A DNA stretch of 64,000 nt. Origin: Hymenobacter sp. J193 (GTDB lineage: Bacteria; Bacteroidota; Bacteroidia; Cytophagales; Hymenobacteraceae). Shown piece by piece: positions 15,436 to 61,459 of this stretch. Both the position numbers and the translations under genes were made by a program. The notes below the pieces were generated by a model. The model searched no databases and had not been told where the DNA came from. It was given only the letters and a program-made list of their open reading frames with translations. The DNA is taken from positions 4,487,001 to 4,551,000 of the forward strand of contig NZ_JAJONE010000001.1 of the NCBI RefSeq assembly GCF_024700075.1, in the 5' to 3' direction. The stretch's first letter is position 1, and each line of letters begins with the position of its first letter.

Positions 15436-15972
15436 TTACCAGTTGGCCACCGACTTGTTGAAGGCATCGTTGATGATGCGCCGATTGATTTCGCGGATTT
15501 TGGTCTGGTTGGCGTTGATCTGGGACGCATCCTGGGTGCCGGGAAAGTCTTCCTGGCTCTGGAAGGTCTGCTCGAAATCCTGCTTTGAATCCAAGGTATT
15601 GGTATACTTGACCCGCACCTGAATAGTCAGGCGGTTGAGGCCGGCCTGGTCGCGGCCATCCTGCTTTTCGATGGCTGCTGGAGCAATATCGTAGGAAATA
15701 ATGGCTCCCTCGAACTGCAAATCCCCATCGCGGGGCACCAGCTTCAGCGTGGTGTTACGCTGAAAGAAGTCCTTGAAGTCCTCGGTGAACTGCTGGGAAA
15801 TGGAGGAGGGGCCATTAGCCGCATTATTTGAAAACGTCTGGATAGACATAGTCTTAGCTCCGCCAGTAATGACGCCCGAAAAGGAGTACACCTTGCAGCC
15901 CGCTACCGAAAACAGGACGCCAACGGCCAGCAGCCCGTAGCAGATAGCCGACTTAAACTTGTTCCAGATCAT
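15436..15972 (-). CDS. lptE: LptE-family outer-membrane assembly lipoprotein
   Basis: A 178-residue lipoprotein: residues 1-26 are a signal with the lipobox SVAGC, and the mature part begins CKVYSFSGV. LptE plugs the LptD barrel and helps move lipopolysaccharide to the outer leaflet. Bacteroidota members show the GAKTMSIQTFSNNA and LTIQVRVKYTNT strands seen here. Its start overlaps the sigma-54 activator gene by 20 bases, so the two are translationally coupled. Family assignment rests on motif recall and context, not a search. Confidence 0.85.
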   Translation of the reverse strand: MIWNKFKSAICYGLLAVGVLFSVAGCKVYSFSGVITGGAKTMSIQTFSNNAANGPSSISQQFTEDFKDFFQRNTTLKLVPRDGDLQFEGAIISYDIAPAAIEKQDGRDQAGLNRLTIQVRVKYTNTLDSKQDFEQTFQSQEDFPGTQDASQINANQTKIREINRRIINDAFNKSVANW

Positions 15973-17311
15973 ACTGCTTGAGCTTGCGGTAGAGGGTGCG
16001 CTCTGAAATACCCAGGTCGTGGGCGGCGTACTTACGCTTGTTGTTGTGTTTCTTCAACGCCTTGATAATCATTTCCTTTTCCTTAGCTTCCAGGCTCAGG
16101 GTTTCCTCCTCGGTTTCGTGCGGAATGTCTTCCACCCGCTGGCTGTCGTCCTCGTAGTCCGTGGTTTCCTCGATGGAAGGCGTGAGAATGTACTCGGAGG
16201 CGGCTCCATCGGCGGCCGGGCGCAGGGGGCGGCCGCCTTCGTACGGTACGGGGCTGAGGTTGGTGAACAGGTGGCTGTTCTGGCGCAGCAGCTCCTGGGT
16301 TTCCTGGGGGCGCTGCCCGCCGGCCAAATCCAGTACCAGCCGCTTGAGGTCGGTCATGTCGCGGCGCATGTCGAATAATACCTTATAGAGCAGGTCGCGC
16401 TCCGAGTAGGCGTTGCCGGCGCCATCGGTGGCCTGGCCGGCGGCGTGGACCAGCATGGGCAAGCGGCTGCTCTGGTCGGCGGGGAGGTAGCCACGGAGGC
16501 GGCGGGCATCCACCTCGCGGTCCGTTTCCAGCACCGACATCTGCTCGGCCACGTTCTTGAGCTGACGGATGTTGCCGGGGAAGCGGAAGCGCTGCAGTTC
16601 CTGCACTGCCTCAGGGTTGAGGCTGATGGGCTTTACACGGTATCGGTCGGCAAAATCCGTGGCGAACTTTCTGAATAATAGATAGATGTCATCTCCTCGT
16701 TCACGCAGTGGTGGAACGGTGATGGGCACGGTGTTGAGGCGGTAGTACAGGTCTTCGCGGAAGCGTCCTTCGCGCACGGCATCCAGCAGATTCACGTTGG
16801 TGGCGGCCACCACGCGCACGTCGGTCTTCTGTACTTTGCTGGAGCCCACCCGGATAAACTCGCCGTTTTCGAGCACGCGCAGCAAACGGGCCTGAGTACC
16901 CAGGGGCATTTCCCCAATTTCATCAAGGAAGATGGTGCCGCCGTTGGTTACCTCGAAATAGCCTTTGCGGGCTTCCTGCGCGCCGGTGAAGGAGCCTTTT
17001 TCGTGCCCGAACAGCTCTGAGTCGATGGTGCCCTCAGGAATGGCGCCGCAGTTGATGGCAATAAACTGCCCGTGCTTGCGCGGCGACAGGGCGTGAATGA
17101 TCTTGGAAAACGACTCCTTGCCGGAGCCACTTTCGCCCGTTATCAGCACCGTCATGTCCGTCGGGGCCACCTGCGCCGCCACCTGAATGGCGTAGTTAAG
17201 CGTAGGCGCGTTGCCGATGATGCCGAAGCGCTGTTTGATACTCTGTATTTCGGAAGGTGTCAAGCTCGTTTTTGGTTTTTGGTTTTTGGTTTTTGGCTTG
17301 TCGGGAGCCAA
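15953..17311 (-). CDS. Sigma-54 interacting AAA+ transcriptional activator
   Basis: An enhancer-binding protein that hydrolyses ATP to open sigma-54 promoters. It has no receiver domain. Visible are Walker A (GESGSGKE), the sigma-54 contact loop as GSFTGA rather than GAFTGA, Walker B (GGTIFLDEIGEM), the arginine-finger region (GRFREDLYYRLN), and a C-terminal Fis-type helix-turn-helix (ALKKHNNKRKYAAHDLGISERTLYRKL). The first 16 residues (MAPDKPKTKNQKPKTS) come from a TTTTTGG heptad repeat. The ancestral start may have been the TTG at 17263, just before TPSEIQSIKQRFG. Downstream lptE is coupled to it. Confidence 0.92.
   Translation of the reverse strand: MAPDKPKTKNQKPKTSLTPSEIQSIKQRFGIIGNAPTLNYAIQVAAQVAPTDMTVLITGESGSGKESFSKIIHALSPRKHGQFIAINCGAIPEGTIDSELFGHEKGSFTGAQEARKGYFEVTNGGTIFLDEIGEMPLGTQARLLRVLENGEFIRVGSSKVQKTDVRVVAATNVNLLDAVREGRFREDLYYRLNTVPITVPPLRERGDDIYLLFRKFATDFADRYRVKPISLNPEAVQELQRFRFPGNIRQLKNVAEQMSVLETDREVDARRLRGYLPADQSSRLPMLVHAAGQATDGAGNAYSERDLLYKVLFDMRRDMTDLKRLVLDLAGGQRPQETQELLRQNSHLFTNLSPVPYEGGRPLRPAADGAASEYILTPSIEETTDYEDDSQRVEDIPHETEEETLSLEAKEKEMIIKALKKHNNKRKYAAHDLGISERTLYRKLKQYDLEQV
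17269..17296. repeat. Four tandem TTTTTGG heptads
   Basis: Exactly four copies of TTTTTGG on the plus strand. They form the left boundary of the four-helix-bundle cassette and encode the KPKTKNQKPKT part of the sigma-54 activator N-terminus. The right boundary (17763-17794) carries the inverse heptads. Confidence 0.9.
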
Positions 17312-17695: not shown

Positions 17696-17762
17696 AGCTT
17701 AAGTGGAAACGGCCTGCTTTCAGAAAAACTTTACAGAACACCTGGGAAGTTGGCAGAACCAG

Positions 17763-17794
17763 CCAAAAACCAAAAGCAACCAACCAAAAACCAA
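17763..17794. repeat. CCAAAAA heptads, right boundary of the four-helix-bundle cassette
   Basis: CCAAAAACCAAAAG, then CAACCAA, CCAAAAA and CCAAC on the plus strand, inverse to the TTTTTGG copies at 17269-17296. The run ends at the last base before the miaB stop codon. Confidence 0.85.
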
Positions 17795-19255
17795 CTAAAC
17801 TATTTCCCCCAGCAGCGCGGCGCCGGTGGTAGTAGTTACCAGTACGTTCACGTAGTCGCCTTTCTGGGCGGTGCCTTTGGGGAAGATGACCACCTGGTTC
17901 TGGCTGTTGCGGCCGCTGAGCTGCTCCTCAGAGCGTTTCGAACGACCTTCTACCAGCACCTGATGCACGCGGCCGACCATGCGGGCGTAGCGGGCCCGGG
18001 CGTGCAGCTGCTGGCGGTCAATGACTTCCTGCAGGCGGCGCTTCTTCACGTCCAGGGGAATGTCGTCTTCCAGCTTGCGGGCAGCCAGGGTGCCGGGGCG
18101 CTCGGAGTAGAAGAAGTTGTAGCCCATGTCGTACTGCACGAAATCAATCAAGCTGAGCGTGTCTTGGTGCTCTTCCTCAGTTTCCGAGCAGAAACCCGCA
18201 ATCATATCGGTGCTAATGGCGCAGTCCTCGCCGAGGATGCGGCGGATGGCCTGCACCCGCTCCTCGTACCAGGGCCGGTCGTAGGTGCGGTTCATGAGCT
18301 TGAGCACGCGCGAGTTACCGCTCTGAGCCGGCAGGTGAATGTACTTGCAGATGTTGTCGTAGCGCGCCATCGTGTGCAGCACTTCATCCGTAATGTCCTT
18401 CGGATGCGAGGTAGAGAAGCGCACCCGCAACAGGGGGCTGATGAGGGCCACGCGCTCCAGGAGCTGAGCAAAGTTCACGAACTCCAGCCCGTCATCCGAG
18501 GCCCATTTGTAGGAGTCCACGTTCTGACCCAGCAGCGTCACTTCCTTGTAGCCCTGGGCCACCAGGTCGCGGGCTTCCTGCACGATGCTGTGCGCGTCGC
18601 GGCTCCGCTCGCGGCCCCGGGTGAAGGGTACCACGCAGAAGGAGCACATGTTGTCGCAGCCGCGCATGATGCTGATGAAGGCCGTGATGCCGTTCGAGTT
18701 CAGGCGCACCGGGGTGATGTCGGCGTAGGTTTCTTCGCGGCTCAGCAGCACGTTTACGGCCTTCTGGCCGCCATCCACCTGCTGAATGAGCTGGGGCAGG
18801 TCGCGGTAAGCGTCGGGGCCTACCACCAAATCCACCAGCTTTTCTTCTTCCAGAAACTTGCTTTTCAGGCGCTCGGCCATGCAGCCCAGCACCCCCACCA
18901 GCAGGCCGGGGTTGCGCTTTTTGTGGCCGTTGATCTGGGAAAGGCGCATGCGTACCGTCTGCTCGGCCTTCTCCCGGATAGAGCAGGTGTTCAGCAGCAC
19001 CAGGTCAGCCCCCTCAAGCTGGTCGGTGGTATCGAAGCCTTCGTTGAAGAGGATGCTCGACACGATTTCGGAGTCGGAGAAGTTCATCTGGCAGCCGTAG
19101 CTCTCAATGTAGAGCTTGCGGGTGCGGCCGGTGCGGGTAGCGGCCTGCACGCGCACAGCGCCCGAGGGCTCATGCGCGTGCGTGGTGGCGTCCACGGCGG
19201 GCGTGGGCAAGGTAGGCGTATCGAGAAAATCGAGCGTAATCAGCGGTTGGGACAT
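17795..19255 (-). CDS. miaB: tRNA-2-methylthio-N6-dimethylallyladenosine synthase
   Basis: A radical-SAM methylthiotransferase that converts i6A37 to ms2i6A37 in tRNAs reading UNN codons. The N-terminal UPF0004 domain holds [15 protein letters not shown] and two more cysteines ([18 protein letters not shown]) for one cluster. The radical-SAM cluster is [18 protein letters not shown]-terminal TRAM region ends the 486-residue protein. A TATCTTTG promoter-like box lies at 19302-19309. The window also encodes MiaE, which hydroxylates the MiaB product, and MtaB, the related t6A enzyme. Confidence 0.96.
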
Positions 19256-28298: not shown

Positions 28299-28940
28299 AT
28301 GACGGATTATTCGGCGCCCCAGCCTTCAGAGGAAGAAGCTCAAAAACGCGAGAAAACCATCCTTAAGCTCAAGCTGAACACCGACCCGCGCTGGGTGGAT
28401 ATTGCCAGCAAAAACATTGAGGACATTCTCGTCGACCACGCCTACTGCGAGCAGAAGGCGGCCAGTACCGGTATTTCGCTGATTGTGAAATACCCCGAGA
28501 AAACGCGCCTCGTAGACGAGCTGACGGAGCTGGTAGCCGAGGAGTGGGCCCACTTCGAGCGGGTGCTGCAGGAGCTGCGCAAGCGCGGCCACCAGCTGGG
28601 CCGCCCCCGCCGCGACGAATACGTGGTGCAGCTGATGGCCCACGTGCGCAAAGGCGGCCTGCGCGAGCGGCAGCTCATGGACCAGCTACTGGTGTCGGCG
28701 CTGATTGAGGCCCGCAGCTGTGAGCGGTTCAAGCTGCTCTGGAAACACATTCCCGACCCTGAACTCAGCAAGTTCTACTACGAGCTGATGGTGTCGGAAG
28801 CCGGGCATTTCGTGGCGTACGTGGACCTGGCCAAGGAATACTGCGACGCCCGCGAAGTGGATGCCCGCCTGCAGGAGCTGCTCAAAATAGAGGGCGACAT
28901 CGTGACCAATCTGCCCGTGCGCGACGACCGGATGCACTAG
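28299..28940 (+). CDS. miaE: tRNA-(ms[2]io[6]A)-hydroxylase
   Basis: MiaE is a carboxylate-bridged diiron monooxygenase that hydroxylates the isopentenyl group of ms2i6A37 in tRNA. The ferritin-like four-helix fold is seen with its ligands: the helix IEDILVDHAYCEQKAAS (Asp/Glu and the EXXH-like region), AEEWAHFERVL (E..H), SALIEARSCERF and SEAGHFVAYV (E..H). Length 213 aa is normal. It depends on the MiaB product, and miaB lies about 9 kb away on the other strand. A composite REP-like terminator element follows. Confidence 0.94.
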   Translation: MTDYSAPQPSEEEAQKREKTILKLKLNTDPRWVDIASKNIEDILVDHAYCEQKAASTGISLIVKYPEKTRLVDELTELVAEEWAHFERVLQELRKRGHQLGRPRRDEYVVQLMAHVRKGGLRERQLMDQLLVSALIEARSCERFKLLWKHIPDPELSKFYYELMVSEAGHFVAYVDLAKEYCDAREVDARLQELLKIEGDIVTNLPVRDDRMH

Positions 28941-28962
28941 CGGTGAGATAGTGACGTGTCAG

Positions 28963-29114
28963 TGCGAGGCGACGCCGCAACAATCCATCCTGTACAGCAC
29001 CAGACCGGTTATAAAACCAGAAAAGCCCCTGCCGTTTGTACTGACGGCAGAGGCTTTTCACATTTCAGGACTTTACACGTTGCTCAGGACGGATTATTTC
29101 GGCTCCGCCTCGCA
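28963..29114. repeat. Composite REP-like element with nested terminator (element A)
   Basis: Outer arms 28963-28992 and 29085-29114 are 30-base imperfect inverted repeats: GCGAGGCGACGCCG...ATCCATCCTG against CAGGACGGAT...CGGCTCCGCCTCGC. Inside is a terminator hairpin at 29021-29058 (AAAAGCCcCTGCCG / CGGCAGaGGCTTTT). The signature ATCCATCCTG before and CAGGACGGA after the hairpin recurs at 38461-38612. Confidence 0.8.
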
Positions 29115-29127
29115 CCGACGCGTTCAA

Positions 29128-29162
29128 ACCTGTCACCTGTTACCTGTTACCTGTTACCTGTT
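29128..29162. repeat. Five ACCTGTT heptads
   Basis: ACCTGTC followed by four exact ACCTGTT copies. They encode the last residues (QVTGNR) and the stop codon of the glycoside hydrolase gene on the minus strand. Confidence 0.85.
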
Positions 29163-30981
29163 CACCATCCCCCTTTGAAGAAAGCAAGCCCGCCGGCACC
29201 GACAGAGCGCCCGTATGCGGGTCAATGACGCCGTTGCGCTCATCCTCGATGTTAGTGGCCTGGGTATAAACGTCGCCGGCAATATCGCGCCGACGCAGCT
29301 CCTGCTTGAACTGCCGGATGCGCTCCGTCCGCTCTTCCCCGGCCTGGGGCCCGCCGTAGTCGGCAAAGCCGAAGCCGCCCCACTCACTCACAATCAGGGG
29401 CTTCTGACGACGGTAGAAGAACGGGTCGCCCACCACCAGCGGGAAGGCGGCCGTGCCAACCATTTCGCCCTCCACCAGCCGGTCGAGCAACTCCTGCCAG
29501 CGCGGCAGGTCGGGGGTGTAGAGGTGGGCCGTGAGCAAATCGGACTTCAGGCGGCCCTCCTGCGAAATGTGCTGCCAGCCGTCGTTGTCCACCACCAGAA
29601 ACTGCGGATGCTCGATCTGCATGTAGTGGTACATGTCGGTTATGTAGCGGCGAGTTTCGGGGTTGGTAGCAATGTCCTGGCAGCCCCAGTCCTCGTTATA
29701 AAGGCTCCAGATAACCACCGAGGGGTGCGACTGAATAAGGGCCAGCATGCGCAGCAGTTCGGCACGGTGGTTTTCGCGGCTGCGCGGGGTGGAGGAGTGG
29801 GGGCTCGGCACTTCTACCCACAGCAGTAGGCCCAACTCATCGGCCAGATTATAGATGCGCGGATCGACCCCGGCAATGTGCACCCGCACCAGGTTGCAGC
29901 CCAGCTCAAGCATGGCATGCATGTGCAGGCGCATTTCCTCGTAGGTGGCCGTGCCGGGCTGGTAGAGGATGCCGTCGAGATAAGTAGGCTCGTTGTTGAG
30001 GTACACGTGCCGCCCTCGGGATTCTACTTTGCGCATCCCGAAATGCGTTTCAATCTGGGCAGTATACCCTTCGGAATCGATGAGCTGAGCCACCAGCCGG
30101 TAGAGGTTGGGCATGCCCGGCCCCCAGAGTTTTGCCCCGGGTAGCTCCATCACCATCCGTTGCTGGCGCTGGCCCGCCTCTAGGCGCAGCTCAAACTCCG
30201 ACACGGCCAGGGGCTGCGGGGCTGGCTCGTTGGTGGAGAATACCTGCAGGCGTACAGTATACACGCCGGGGTCGTGAATCCGGGTGGTCATATTGAAACG
30301 CACCAGCCGGTCTTCAATCACGCTTTCCACGCCCACGCGGGTGCGAAGGCGGTTGCGCTCCACCATCTCCAGCCATACCGAGCGCACGGCTCCGGTATGC
30401 GTTTGGTACCAGATGCCGCCGCGCTTGTACACGTGCGACTCCTGCTTGCCGCGGGGCGTTTCGGCGTCCATGGTATCGGCAATGCGCACGGTGATGCGGT
30501 TGTTGGGGCGCAGGTACTCGTCGCGCAGCTCAAACGAAAACGACGTGTACTCGCCGTAGTGAATGTCTTCGCCCTCAATCGTGCGCAGCAAGTGCCCGTT
30601 GAGCCACACCTGGGTTTCGTAGCCGCAGGCCCCGAAGGTGAGCTGAAACAGACTGTGGTCGTCGCCCCGCTCGGGTAAAGAAAATTCCCGTTCGTACCAG
30701 GCTACTACCTTATCCTGCCACCGGGAGGAAGGCTGGCCGGGCTCCCGGGTTTGCTCCATGTGCTCCTCCACCGAGCCGGGCCAGTTGGCTACGTGCTCGT
30801 ACTGGTGGCTGACGTACCAGGCATCGCGCAGGCCTACGTCACCGGGGTCCAGAGCAAAGCGCCACTCCCCGTCGAGCAGCAGATAGTTGTTGGAGCGCAG
30901 CACGGCCCGCGGGAGGGGGTTCGTCGTGCGCAGGTCGCCATTGGTAGCCGAAAAGCCGAAGTTAGGTTGCGTGGAATTCAT
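29140..30981 (-). CDS. Glycoside hydrolase family 2 protein
   Basis: A 613-residue enzyme with the GH2 order: jelly-roll sugar-binding domain (about 20-190, with YEREFSLP and VWLNGHLLRT), immunoglobulin-like domain (about 190-290), and TIM barrel. The acid/base glutamate is in SLYNEDWG and the nucleophile in LIVSEWGGFGF. No signal peptide is visible, so it is probably cytoplasmic. It belongs to the beta-galactosidase/beta-glucuronidase/mannosidase group; the substrate is not predictable. The C-terminal QVTGNR is encoded by a heptad repeat, so the native end may have been altered. Confidence 0.9.
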   Translation of the reverse strand: MNSTQPNFGFSATNGDLRTTNPLPRAVLRSNNYLLLDGEWRFALDPGDVGLRDAWYVSHQYEHVANWPGSVEEHMEQTREPGQPSSRWQDKVVAWYEREFSLPERGDDHSLFQLTFGACGYETQVWLNGHLLRTIEGEDIHYGEYTSFSFELRDEYLRPNNRITVRIADTMDAETPRGKQESHVYKRGGIWYQTHTGAVRSVWLEMVERNRLRTRVGVESVIEDRLVRFNMTTRIHDPGVYTVRLQVFSTNEPAPQPLAVSEFELRLEAGQRQQRMVMELPGAKLWGPGMPNLYRLVAQLIDSEGYTAQIETHFGMRKVESRGRHVYLNNEPTYLDGILYQPGTATYEEMRLHMHAMLELGCNLVRVHIAGVDPRIYNLADELGLLLWVEVPSPHSSTPRSRENHRAELLRMLALIQSHPSVVIWSLYNEDWGCQDIATNPETRRYITDMYHYMQIEHPQFLVVDNDGWQHISQEGRLKSDLLTAHLYTPDLPRWQELLDRLVEGEMVGTAAFPLVVGDPFFYRRQKPLIVSEWGGFGFADYGGPQAGEERTERIRQFKQELRRRDIAGDVYTQATNIEDERNGVIDPHTGALSVPAGLLSSKGDGEQVTGNR

Positions 30982-59368: not shown

Positions 59369-61459
59369 ATGAACAAGACGTATTGCCCCAGCCTCACCGA
59401 GTACAAGCGCCGCCTTTCGCGGGAAGTGAAAATCGGCGACCTGCCCATGGGCGGCCTCAACCCGATTCGGGTGCAGAGCATGACCACCGTGGACACCATG
59501 GACACGCTGGGCTCGGTGGAGCAGACCCTGCGCATGGTGGAGGCCGGCTGCGAGTACGTGCGCATCACGGCCCCCAGCGTGAAGGAAGCCCAGAACCTGC
59601 TGGAAATCAGGAAGGAGCTGCGCAAGCGGGGCTGCAACGTGCCGCTCATTGCCGATATTCACTTCACGCCCAACGCCGCCGAGCTGGCCGCCCGCATCGT
59701 GGAGAAAGTGCGCGTAAACCCTGGCAACTACGCCGATAAAAAGAAGTTCGACGTCATCGACTACACCGATGCCTCCTACGCGGCCGAGGTGGAGCGCATC
59801 CGGGAGCGGTTCCGCCCCCTGGTGCAGATCTGCAAGCAGTACGGCACGGCCATGCGCATCGGCACCAACCATGGCTCGTTGTCGGACCGCATCCTGAGCC
59901 GCTACGGCGACACGCCCCTGGGCATGGTAGAGTCGGCGCTGGAGTTTCTGCGCCTTTGCGAGGAAGAAAACTACTACGACGTGGTGCTGAGCATGAAGGC
60001 CTCCAACACCCAGGTAATGGTGCAGGCCTACCGGCTGCTGGTGCAGAAGCTCGATGAGGAGGGCCTACAGCCCTACCCGCTGCACCTGGGCGTGACCGAA
60101 GCCGGCGAAGCCGAAGACGGCCGCATCAAGTCGGCCGTGGGAATCGGCACCCTGCTCGAAGATGGCCTCGGCGACACCGTGCGCGTTTCGCTCACCGAAG
60201 CTCCCGAAGCCGAAGCCCCCGTAGCCCGCGCCCTGATTGACCGATACACGAACCGCGCGGCCGAAGCCAAGCCGATTCGCCCGTTGGGCGAGGAATTAGG
60301 AATTAGTAATGAGCAATTAGTAATTGAAAACGAGGCCACTGCTGCCATGCCTGCCCCTGCGTTTGCCAATTCTTCATTACTAATTACTAATTCCTCATTA
60401 CCGATAGACCCTTTCCAGTACCACCGCCGCCCTACGCGCGAGGTGCTGAACCTGGGCGGGCAGAATGTGCCCCGGGTGATGGTGGACCTCTCGGCCCTGG
60501 ATGCGGTGGAGTATGCTGACCTGCGCGCTGTGGGCCATTTGTACTCCGCGTTTCTGGACAAGTTTCAGATGAATGACCTCGGCGCCGACTACGTGTACTC
60601 GGGCCAGCGCCCGGTGCCGTTTATGCTGCCCAACGGCCTCAAGGAAGTGGTGGATTACAGCGCCTGGCTTGATGCCGGTCAGCGCCCCGACCATTACCCG
60701 GTACTGACCCATACTGAATACGCTGCCCCTGGTGCCCGCCACCCCGAGCTGAACTTTGTGTTCCAGCACCTCGACTCGCTCACGCCCGCCTCCCTGGGGC
60801 AGCTGCGCGCCGACGCTACGGCCGTCATTATTCTCTACACCGACAACGCCCACGCTATGCCCGAAATCCGCCGGGCGTTTTTCGAGCTGATGAATAATGG
60901 CGTGACCAATCCGGTCATCATCAACCGCCAGTACCCCGCGCTGACGCCCGAGCAAACCCAGCTCTACGCCGCCACCGACGTGGGCGGCCTGCTGCTCGAC
61001 GGCCTCGGCGACGGGGTAGTACTGAGCACCGAGCTGCTGCCCGCCCGCCCGAAACAGGAGTGGCTCACGACGCTGGATCAGCTCAACCAGCTTTCCTTTG
61101 GTATTCTGCAGGCGGCGCGCACGCGCATGAGCAAGACCGAGTACATCAGTTGCCCGAGCTGCGGCCGCACCCTGTTCGACCTGCAGGAAACCACCGCCAT
61201 GATCCGCAAGCGCACCGACCATCTGAAGGGCGTGAAAATCGGCATTATGGGCTGCATCGTGAACGGCCCCGGCGAAATGGCCGACGCCGACTACGGCTAC
61301 GTGGGCGTGGGCAAAGGCAAAATTGCCCTCTACCGTGGCCAGGAAGTCATTAAGAAAGCCGTGCCCGAAGCCCAGGCCGTAGATCAGCTGATTGACCTCA
61401 TGCGCGAGGACGGCCGCTGGATTGAGCCGGTACTGCTGGAGGAGCCGGTGGCGGGGTAG
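59369..61459 (+). CDS. ispG: 4-hydroxy-3-methylbut-2-en-1-yl diphosphate synthase, long form
   Basis: IspG (GcpE) reduces MEcPP to HMBPP with a [4Fe-4S] cluster in the MEP isoprenoid pathway. The start MNKTYCPSLTEYKRR at 59369 is chosen; the frame is open to 59309. Visible are VKIGDLPMGGLNPIRVQSMT, the TIM barrel (VPLIADIHFTPNAAELAARI, RIGTNHGSLSDRI), a central insertion typical of the Bacteroidota/plant long form, and the cluster ligands SCPSCGRTLFDLQ and GCIVNGPGE (Cys, Glu). The 696 aa include about 37 residues (about 308-345, ELGISNEQLVIENE to SLLITNSSLPI) encoded by a repeat element inserted in frame. Confidence 0.95.
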   Translation: MNKTYCPSLTEYKRRLSREVKIGDLPMGGLNPIRVQSMTTVDTMDTLGSVEQTLRMVEAGCEYVRITAPSVKEAQNLLEIRKELRKRGCNVPLIADIHFTPNAAELAARIVEKVRVNPGNYADKKKFDVIDYTDASYAAEVERIRERFRPLVQICKQYGTAMRIGTNHGSLSDRILSRYGDTPLGMVESALEFLRLCEEENYYDVVLSMKASNTQVMVQAYRLLVQKLDEEGLQPYPLHLGVTEAGEAEDGRIKSAVGIGTLLEDGLGDTVRVSLTEAPEAEAPVARALIDRYTNRAAEAKPIRPLGEELGISNEQLVIENEATAAMPAPAFANSSLLITNSSLPIDPFQYHRRPTREVLNLGGQNVPRVMVDLSALDAVEYADLRAVGHLYSAFLDKFQMNDLGADYVYSGQRPVPFMLPNGLKEVVDYSAWLDAGQRPDHYPVLTHTEYAAPGARHPELNFVFQHLDSLTPASLGQLRADATAVIILYTDNAHAMPEIRRAFFELMNNGVTNPVIINRQYPALTPEQTQLYAATDVGGLLLDGLGDGVVLSTELLPARPKQEWLTTLDQLNQLSFGILQAARTRMSKTEYISCPSCGRTLFDLQETTAMIRKRTDHLKGVKIGIMGCIVNGPGEMADADYGYVGVGKGKIALYRGQEVIKKAVPEAQAVDQLIDLMREDGRWIEPVLLEEPVAG
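60290..60401. repeat. AT-rich heptad-built inverted repeat inserted in frame in ispG
   Basis: The left arm has GAATTAG-type heptads (GAATTAG GAATTAG TAATGAG CAATTAG); the right arm has the inverse (TCATTAC TAATTAC TAATTCC TCATTAC). The arms pair over about 29 bases with two or three mismatches. The composition is far from the GC-rich surroundings. Confidence 0.85.

Follow-up and report, generated by a model that had tools for sequence, protein, structure and literature searches.

The in-frame insert in the ispG gene of Hymenobacter sp. J193 probably belongs to a class of heptad-armed stem-loop elements that resemble the intervening sequences (IVS) of rRNA genes, as a short form that carries no gene, a reading we prefer with moderate confidence. 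The insert lies in a stretch of 64,000 nucleotides, hereafter the window (C1:4487001-4551000 of genome G000, which is 5.66 Mb in size). In this reading, an element has a loop with an inverted array on either side, each array made up of a few imperfect 7-bp units. The loop of the long form is a gene that encodes an IVP/S23 four-helix-bundle protein; the short form has some 10-120 nt of other sequence instead. These elements occupy places that tolerate stem-loops: operon gaps and, rarely and in frame, disordered protein linkers. Short forms would rely on IVP proteins that act on the hairpin in trans, and the stem may be cleaved by RNase III in the mRNA.

Table 1. Features of the two heptad-armed elements in the window and of the genes that belong to them (window positions).
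Feature	Position	Strand	Pfam match
GTTTTTG array, arm of long-form element	17268..17299	.	
23S rRNA IVP / S23-like four-helix-bundle gene, 125 aa	17318..17695	-	PF05635, E 7e-38
CCAAAAA/CCAACCA-type array, partner arm	17757..17799	.	
ispG coding sequence with insert	59369..61459	+	PF04551 GcpE, E 6.7e-121
Left heptad arm (GAATTAG GAATTAG TAATGAG CAATTAG TAATTG)	60291..60326	+	
Spacer of ispG insert, 40 nt	60327..60366	+	
Right heptad arm, imperfect inverse of left	60367..60401	+	

The sequence-only reading had described inverted, heptad-built arms lying in frame in ispG, an essential gene, and both the arms and the frame were borne out. The insert (60291-60401) has a spacer between two arrays that are inverted to each other and built of imperfect 7-bp units of the AATTAGT/AATGAGG type; its roughly 112 bases add about 37 residues (308-345 of IspG) and leave the frame intact. 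The arms are 85% complementary over 34 nt, an alternative register (33 nt, 82%) being nearly equal, and Tandem Repeats Finder gives the left array a period of 7 (score 42). The RNA fold of the insert reaches -41.4 kcal/mol, whereas dinucleotide shuffles lie at -23.5 +/- 3.3 (z -5.5; none of 200 shuffles matches it), so that the insert has the stem-loop with complementary ends that is a trait of IVS; Rfam gave no match across window positions 60000-60700. In 324 kb including the window, our period-7 detector found five arrays scoring at least 14, versus zero to three at other periods from 4 to 15. An AlphaFold2 model of IspG (43 sequences, pTM 0.84) predicts the linker to be a disordered loop, with pLDDT below 50 at model residues 306-339 and well-folded parts on either side.

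The nearest named relatives of the window IspG are from Hymenobacter, and within this genus the linker varies widely. We searched 101 genus genomes with IspG by tblastn, where one unbroken match denotes a long linker and a match in two or three pieces a split at the linker. The match was unbroken in 36 of the 101 genomes and split in 65; we read every long linker and 34 of the 65 split-match linkers. The latter measure 14-15 residues between anchors in every case, and the long ones 32-67 residues. Residues 308-345 are thus not conserved across the genus: by our reading, the AATTAGT insert occupies three of the 36 long linkers, and the others hold AGTT (10), AGCT (10) or GAATGAG (1) heptads, a non-heptad CCCCTC palindrome (4), or other or decayed sequence (8). 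The palindromic linkers (in G091, G080, G002 and G043) are of the type CCCCTC..AAAAG..GAGGGG and encode the peptide SPPSPLSKREG..SLLERGLGGEV. On a tree of the IspG flanks, linker excluded, we count at least 11 changes between long and short and at least 20 changes of family; this is a 450-bp tree of a single gene, in which interspecies exchange of ispG could inflate the counts and which, like our other trees, does not separate gain from loss. Full and empty linkers are mixed within supported sister groups (G058/G061, G043/G041 and G059+G060/G025), and related species differ at this one site in heptad family as well. G000 and G054, which are not sisters on the tree, have much spacer in common. 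Outside Hymenobacter, the linker has at most 25 residues in 68 of 72 named loci; among these 72, visual inspection showed heptad pairs in the linker of one Bacteroidetes MAG and of two Mucilaginibacter species, M. corticis and M. rivuli.

Searching the insert's own genome with its 112 bases gave 12 matches at E <= 1e-3, comprising the query, its own reverse complement and eight other loci. Seven of the eight match in the arms alone, and C1:671281 aligns through the spacer at 72%; spacers are mostly unshared between copies. The pattern AATTNNN, repeated four times with one mismatch allowed, has 95 forward matches in this genome versus five for the reversed pattern, a control that is sizeable in several other genomes. 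The stretches we read contain 17 rows of paired AATT elements, 16 of them distinct. The extra row comes from C1:35510 and C1:4836912, which are near-identical including their flanks and lie near both ends of C1, perhaps through assembly overlap or duplication.

Three of the 16 distinct copies lie in frame in genes, encoding IspG, a UvrA-like protein and an E1 dehydrogenase fusion (identified by Pfam). All three translate as ..ISNEExxI or ISNEKxxI..NSSLxITNS or a near variant, and insertions similar to the NEQLVI/NSSLLI type do recur elsewhere, as the ISNEExxI..NSSLLITNS peptides of the two other proteins, encoded by the same type of DNA arm. The coding copies have AATGA, not AATTA, as the left-arm heptad in the stop-prone phase, and their frame is open through the whole element, as it is in none of the 13 other copies; the coding copies are therefore a filtered or adapted minority. 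In IspG, an element was probably inserted into the linker, after which stop-free copies, with the AATGA heptad in the stop-prone phase, would have survived. Among 30 orthologs read for each of the other two proteins, the UvrA-like insert occurs in two (G000 and G034; G063 may hold one arm) and the E1 dehydrogenase insert, judged by eye, in about 10.

In the manner of known heptameric arrays, the copies of this family consist of tandem 7-bp units and are dispersed and mostly intergenic. Heptads of other families are widespread as well. AGCT heptads reach 469 matches in one genus genome, with a reversed control of zero in 99 of the 101; phylum-wide they occur in 66 of 296 genomes and 40 of 139 genera, where the reversed control reaches 38 matches in some. 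G000 itself has long AGCTTAG arrays at C1:178809-178861 and C1:1445861-1445934. The sites of a single genome often differ in heptad family. Genome-wide matches to a family are higher where IspG holds that family (AGCT p 1e-6; AGTT p 7e-5; AATT p 0.03, n 3), an association that is weak after allowing for relatedness: over independent pairs it stands at 4.6 versus 0 of 6 for AGTT (median p 0.06), 1.4 versus 0 of 5 for AGCT and 0.6 versus 0 of 2 for AATT.

The loop of the second element in the window is an IVP gene. Its arms are inverted and complementary at 31 of 38 positions, and 0 of 2000 shuffles and 0 of 2944 pieces of the window did as well. One relative of its product with a solved structure, XCC0516 of X. 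campestris, was found at E <= 0.01. The CCAAAAA-type arm has a weak period of 7: lag 7 is not above lag 11, Tandem Repeats Finder assigns a period of 11, and the period-7 detector misses the array, which counts against our reading. A second IVP gene (PF05635, E 2.6e-29) lies between AATT arms at C1:943817-944250; these arms are 370 nt apart and 29/32 complementary, in a stretch that had been chosen beforehand for its heptads. The AATT and GTTTTTG families each therefore include a member that, like some IVS, encodes an IVP/S23 protein, and the ispG copy is gene-less. A short GTTTTTG pair is present at C1:4748765-4748905, and it is because both heptad families of short elements also frame IVP genes that we link the two forms in this genome. 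Two of the four IVP genes examined in Hymenobacter-genus DNA are without heptad arms, a further point against the preferred reading. Domain searches of the IVP proteins found no catalytic domain; a below-cut-off resemblance to Avd (PF22296), a protein of retroelements, is only a hint that an IVP protein might act on the hairpin. The ORFs adjoining the window element, both on the minus strand, presumably encode a MiaB-like protein (17795-19255) and a sigma-54-type regulator (15953-17311); the N-terminus of the latter, PKTKNQKPKTS, would be arm-encoded.

The sequence-only reading had also proposed that the ispG insert shares its heptad design with the CCAAAAA and ACCTGTT arrays of the window, and that one mechanism spreads such paired arrays. 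This holds for CCAAAAA, which pairs with GTTTTTG around the IVP gene, and fails for ACCTGTT: the repeats detected at window positions 28900-29500 include no inverted counterpart of its five units (29128-29166). A single mechanism of movement is plausible for the paired arrays, with the IVP protein as its putative agent.

On plasmids, too, IVP genes tend to have heptad arms. We collected 29 plasmid IVP loci (19 from 25 records for a first IVP type and 10 from 27 for a second) and scored 27, leaving out a near-duplicate (L332, of L331) and a record without annotation (L345). Period-7 arrays stand on both sides of 21 of the 27 IVP genes, compared with 5 of 70 other genes (pooled Fisher 1.3e-11, which overstates independence as several loci are related). 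In the first set arrays were on both sides of 12 of 17 genes, on one side of three and absent from two (other genes, both sides, 5/53); in the second, nine of 10 had them on both sides and one did not (other genes 0/17). Control periods of 5, 6, 9, 10 and 11 gave 0/17 and 0/10 in the two sets, and period 8 gave 2/17 and 0/10. The units vary by locus (AGTAGGG, AGGGTGT, AACAGGG, GGGAAAA, AATTCGC, ATTAGTG), and the both-sided cases come from Cyanobacteriota, Bacteroidota (Bernardetia) and Bacillota (Monoglobus, with AATTAGG heptads); an IVP gene of Chloroflexota (Chlorohelix) has an array on one side. Some of these genes separate the partners nrdB/nrdA, cas6/cas4, cas2/cas1 or hsdS/hsdR. The both-sided arrays are inverted-complementary in 17 of 21 loci; the four others (L329, L337, L378 and L383) speak against our reading, as do IVP genes of viral contigs, which at a slightly lower threshold have arms on both sides in 2/9, on one side in 4/9 and on neither in 3/9. 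For the second IVP type, none of 15 candidate stretches from viral contigs proved to be a relative.

Among known systems, the closest is the IVS. Short IVS without an ORF occur in Salmonella, and IVS are excised by RNase III without religation; cleavage of the stem in heptad elements would be the counterpart. According to excerpts of one account, 23S rRNA IVS are stem-loops with complementary ends, some with an S23-family ORF, found sporadically at fixed tolerant sites; in Coxiella, tandem heptamers directly precede the S23 ORF, and S23 proteins have no known function (PMC4990558). The stem-loop, the ORF in some members, the sporadic presence at tolerant sites and the heptamers each have their likeness in the heptad elements. 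IVS are located in 16S or 23S rRNA genes, whereas the ispG insert is in a protein gene and other heptad elements are in operon gaps, with many copies and many families; we therefore say that the insert works like an IVS and do not class it as one.

Bacterial heptamer arrays have been described for decades without an agreed mechanism. Excerpted accounts report GGGAATC in Xanthomonas, with 70 convergent pairs in one genome and 75 in another, and GGGGA(T/C)T in Nostoc (PMC4692102), as well as TAACTGA in Beggiatoaceae, cyanobacteria and Bacteroidetes, with no mechanism of spread evident (PMC4679880). As far as these excerpts go, such repeats, including the cyanobacterial STRR/LTRR, are like ours in having 7-bp units in heterogeneous, mostly intergenic copies, and differ in that they carry no tie to an IVP gene, no in-frame inserts in core genes and no replacement of families at one site. 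The literature we searched, chiefly titles and the openings of abstracts with thin coverage of subscription journals, gave no general tie of IVP/S23 genes to paired heptad arrays.

The main rival remains growth in place, in which 7-nt polymerase slippage at hairpin-prone sites, together with template switching, would build both arms and nothing would move between loci; we consider it rather unlikely. It accords with a period of 7 favoured regardless of unit, with the unshared spacers and with an idea about polymerase length quoted for heptamers in the excerpted literature (PMC4679880). It also accords with arms that match by family and not unit by unit, since permuting the units mattered (p <= 0.05) in one element out of 64, a list with two duplicate entries; this test has low power at about four units per arm, however, and in G015 several arm pairs are mirrored perfectly (30/30 to 32/32). 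Arms of different loci have little unit order in common, the mean excess being 0.46 in G000 (340 pairs) and 0.17 in G015 (68 pairs), values given without significance, and the comparison revealed nothing clear in favour of copying of arms between loci. Growth in place would not, on the other hand, lead one to expect a single family such as AGCT at anywhere from tens to hundreds of sites in one genome, nor whole IspG inserts opposite short linkers in sister species, and it leaves IVP genes as loops unexplained.

A quite unlikely alternative is that selection keeps a hairpin at each site, for mRNA stability or as an RNase III site, with the sequence drifting freely. The etfB-etfA gap is its best case: judged by eye, 24 of 30 gaps hold a paired heptad hairpin and two a single arm (according to automatic detection, 18 of the 30 have two arrays), the hairpins are of eight heptad types, and the tree of the locus requires at least 19 changes of state. 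Four of the 30 gaps are nevertheless empty, many IspG genes lack a hairpin, and drift alone does not explain families common to many loci.

It is improbable, too, that an ordinary transposase (Y1/RAYT or DDE) moves the element in the manner of REPs, MITEs or Rickettsia palindromes. In favour of this, the palindromes are short and lie both within genes and between them, and excerpted accounts of REP/RAYT and MITEs describe similarly short, dispersed stem-loops, sometimes within genes, with different REPs at about the same recB site (PMC3733652). Rickettsia palindromic elements, to which the sequence-only reading had likened the insert, are described in comparable excerpts as about 150 bp long, in named families, with CGTC at one end (PMC10969869; PMC3733652); the parallel is sound for behaviour, namely in-frame insertion into metabolic genes there and into protein genes here, and breaks down for make-up, as the heptad elements have neither the consensus interior nor the tag. 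GTAG or CGTC, on either strand, falls within 12 bp of an end in only three of 18 elements. The same 18 show no target duplication, their flanks having words of at most 4 nt in common with ends set by eye, and neither MITE-type fixed terminal repeats nor a conserved interior was found in the elements examined; these absences weigh on our own reading as well. Genomes with Y1_Tnp are somewhat richer in heptads (median 110 versus 79.5 matches, p 0.007), and the insert's own genome has three partial PF01797 matches over cut-off. PF01797 is nonetheless without a match in 28 of 101 genomes, including the heptad-rich G007 (304 matches) and G099 (236) and the nearest relative, G034 (159), so that a Y1 transposase is probably not the required enzyme. 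Reverse transcriptase (PF00078) was likewise rejected, being present in 18 of 101 genomes and without a match in heptad-rich G015 and G007; neither enzyme fits well as the mover.

An ancestral IspG domain, for which the open frame speaks and nothing more, is refuted by the short linkers within and outside the genus.

With the heptad-armed, IVS-like element as our preferred reading, we suggest more tentatively that IVP/S23 genes and paired 7-bp arrays may form one mobile class over several phyla. The IVP protein would recognize the hairpin and assist its insertion in the form of RNA or single-stranded DNA, different heptads could serve to rebuild the arms, and gene-less forms would re-enter tolerant slots, including the linkers of core enzymes. 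If so, gene-less short forms would explain the heptamer arrays of cyanobacteria and Bacteroidota. The tie between IVP genes and heptads gives heptamer arrays and S23 proteins each a testable partner and points to a wider element for which rRNA intervening sequences are one habitat; IspG is a core enzyme with a linker that heptad hairpins have repeatedly refilled.

The IVP proteins themselves carry a trace of the period. The domain end was located in 117 of 120 homologs, 26 of which have tails of at least 12 residues; 20 of these 26 fit a heptad-translation pattern, which was fixed after the tails had been viewed, and residue identity in the tails is maximal at lag 7 (0.184, versus 0.04-0.11 at other lags). 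On cyanobacterial plasmids, four heptad-flanked IVP genes (L329, L338, L378 and L379) lie among cas genes, between cas6 and cas4 or cas2 and cas1.
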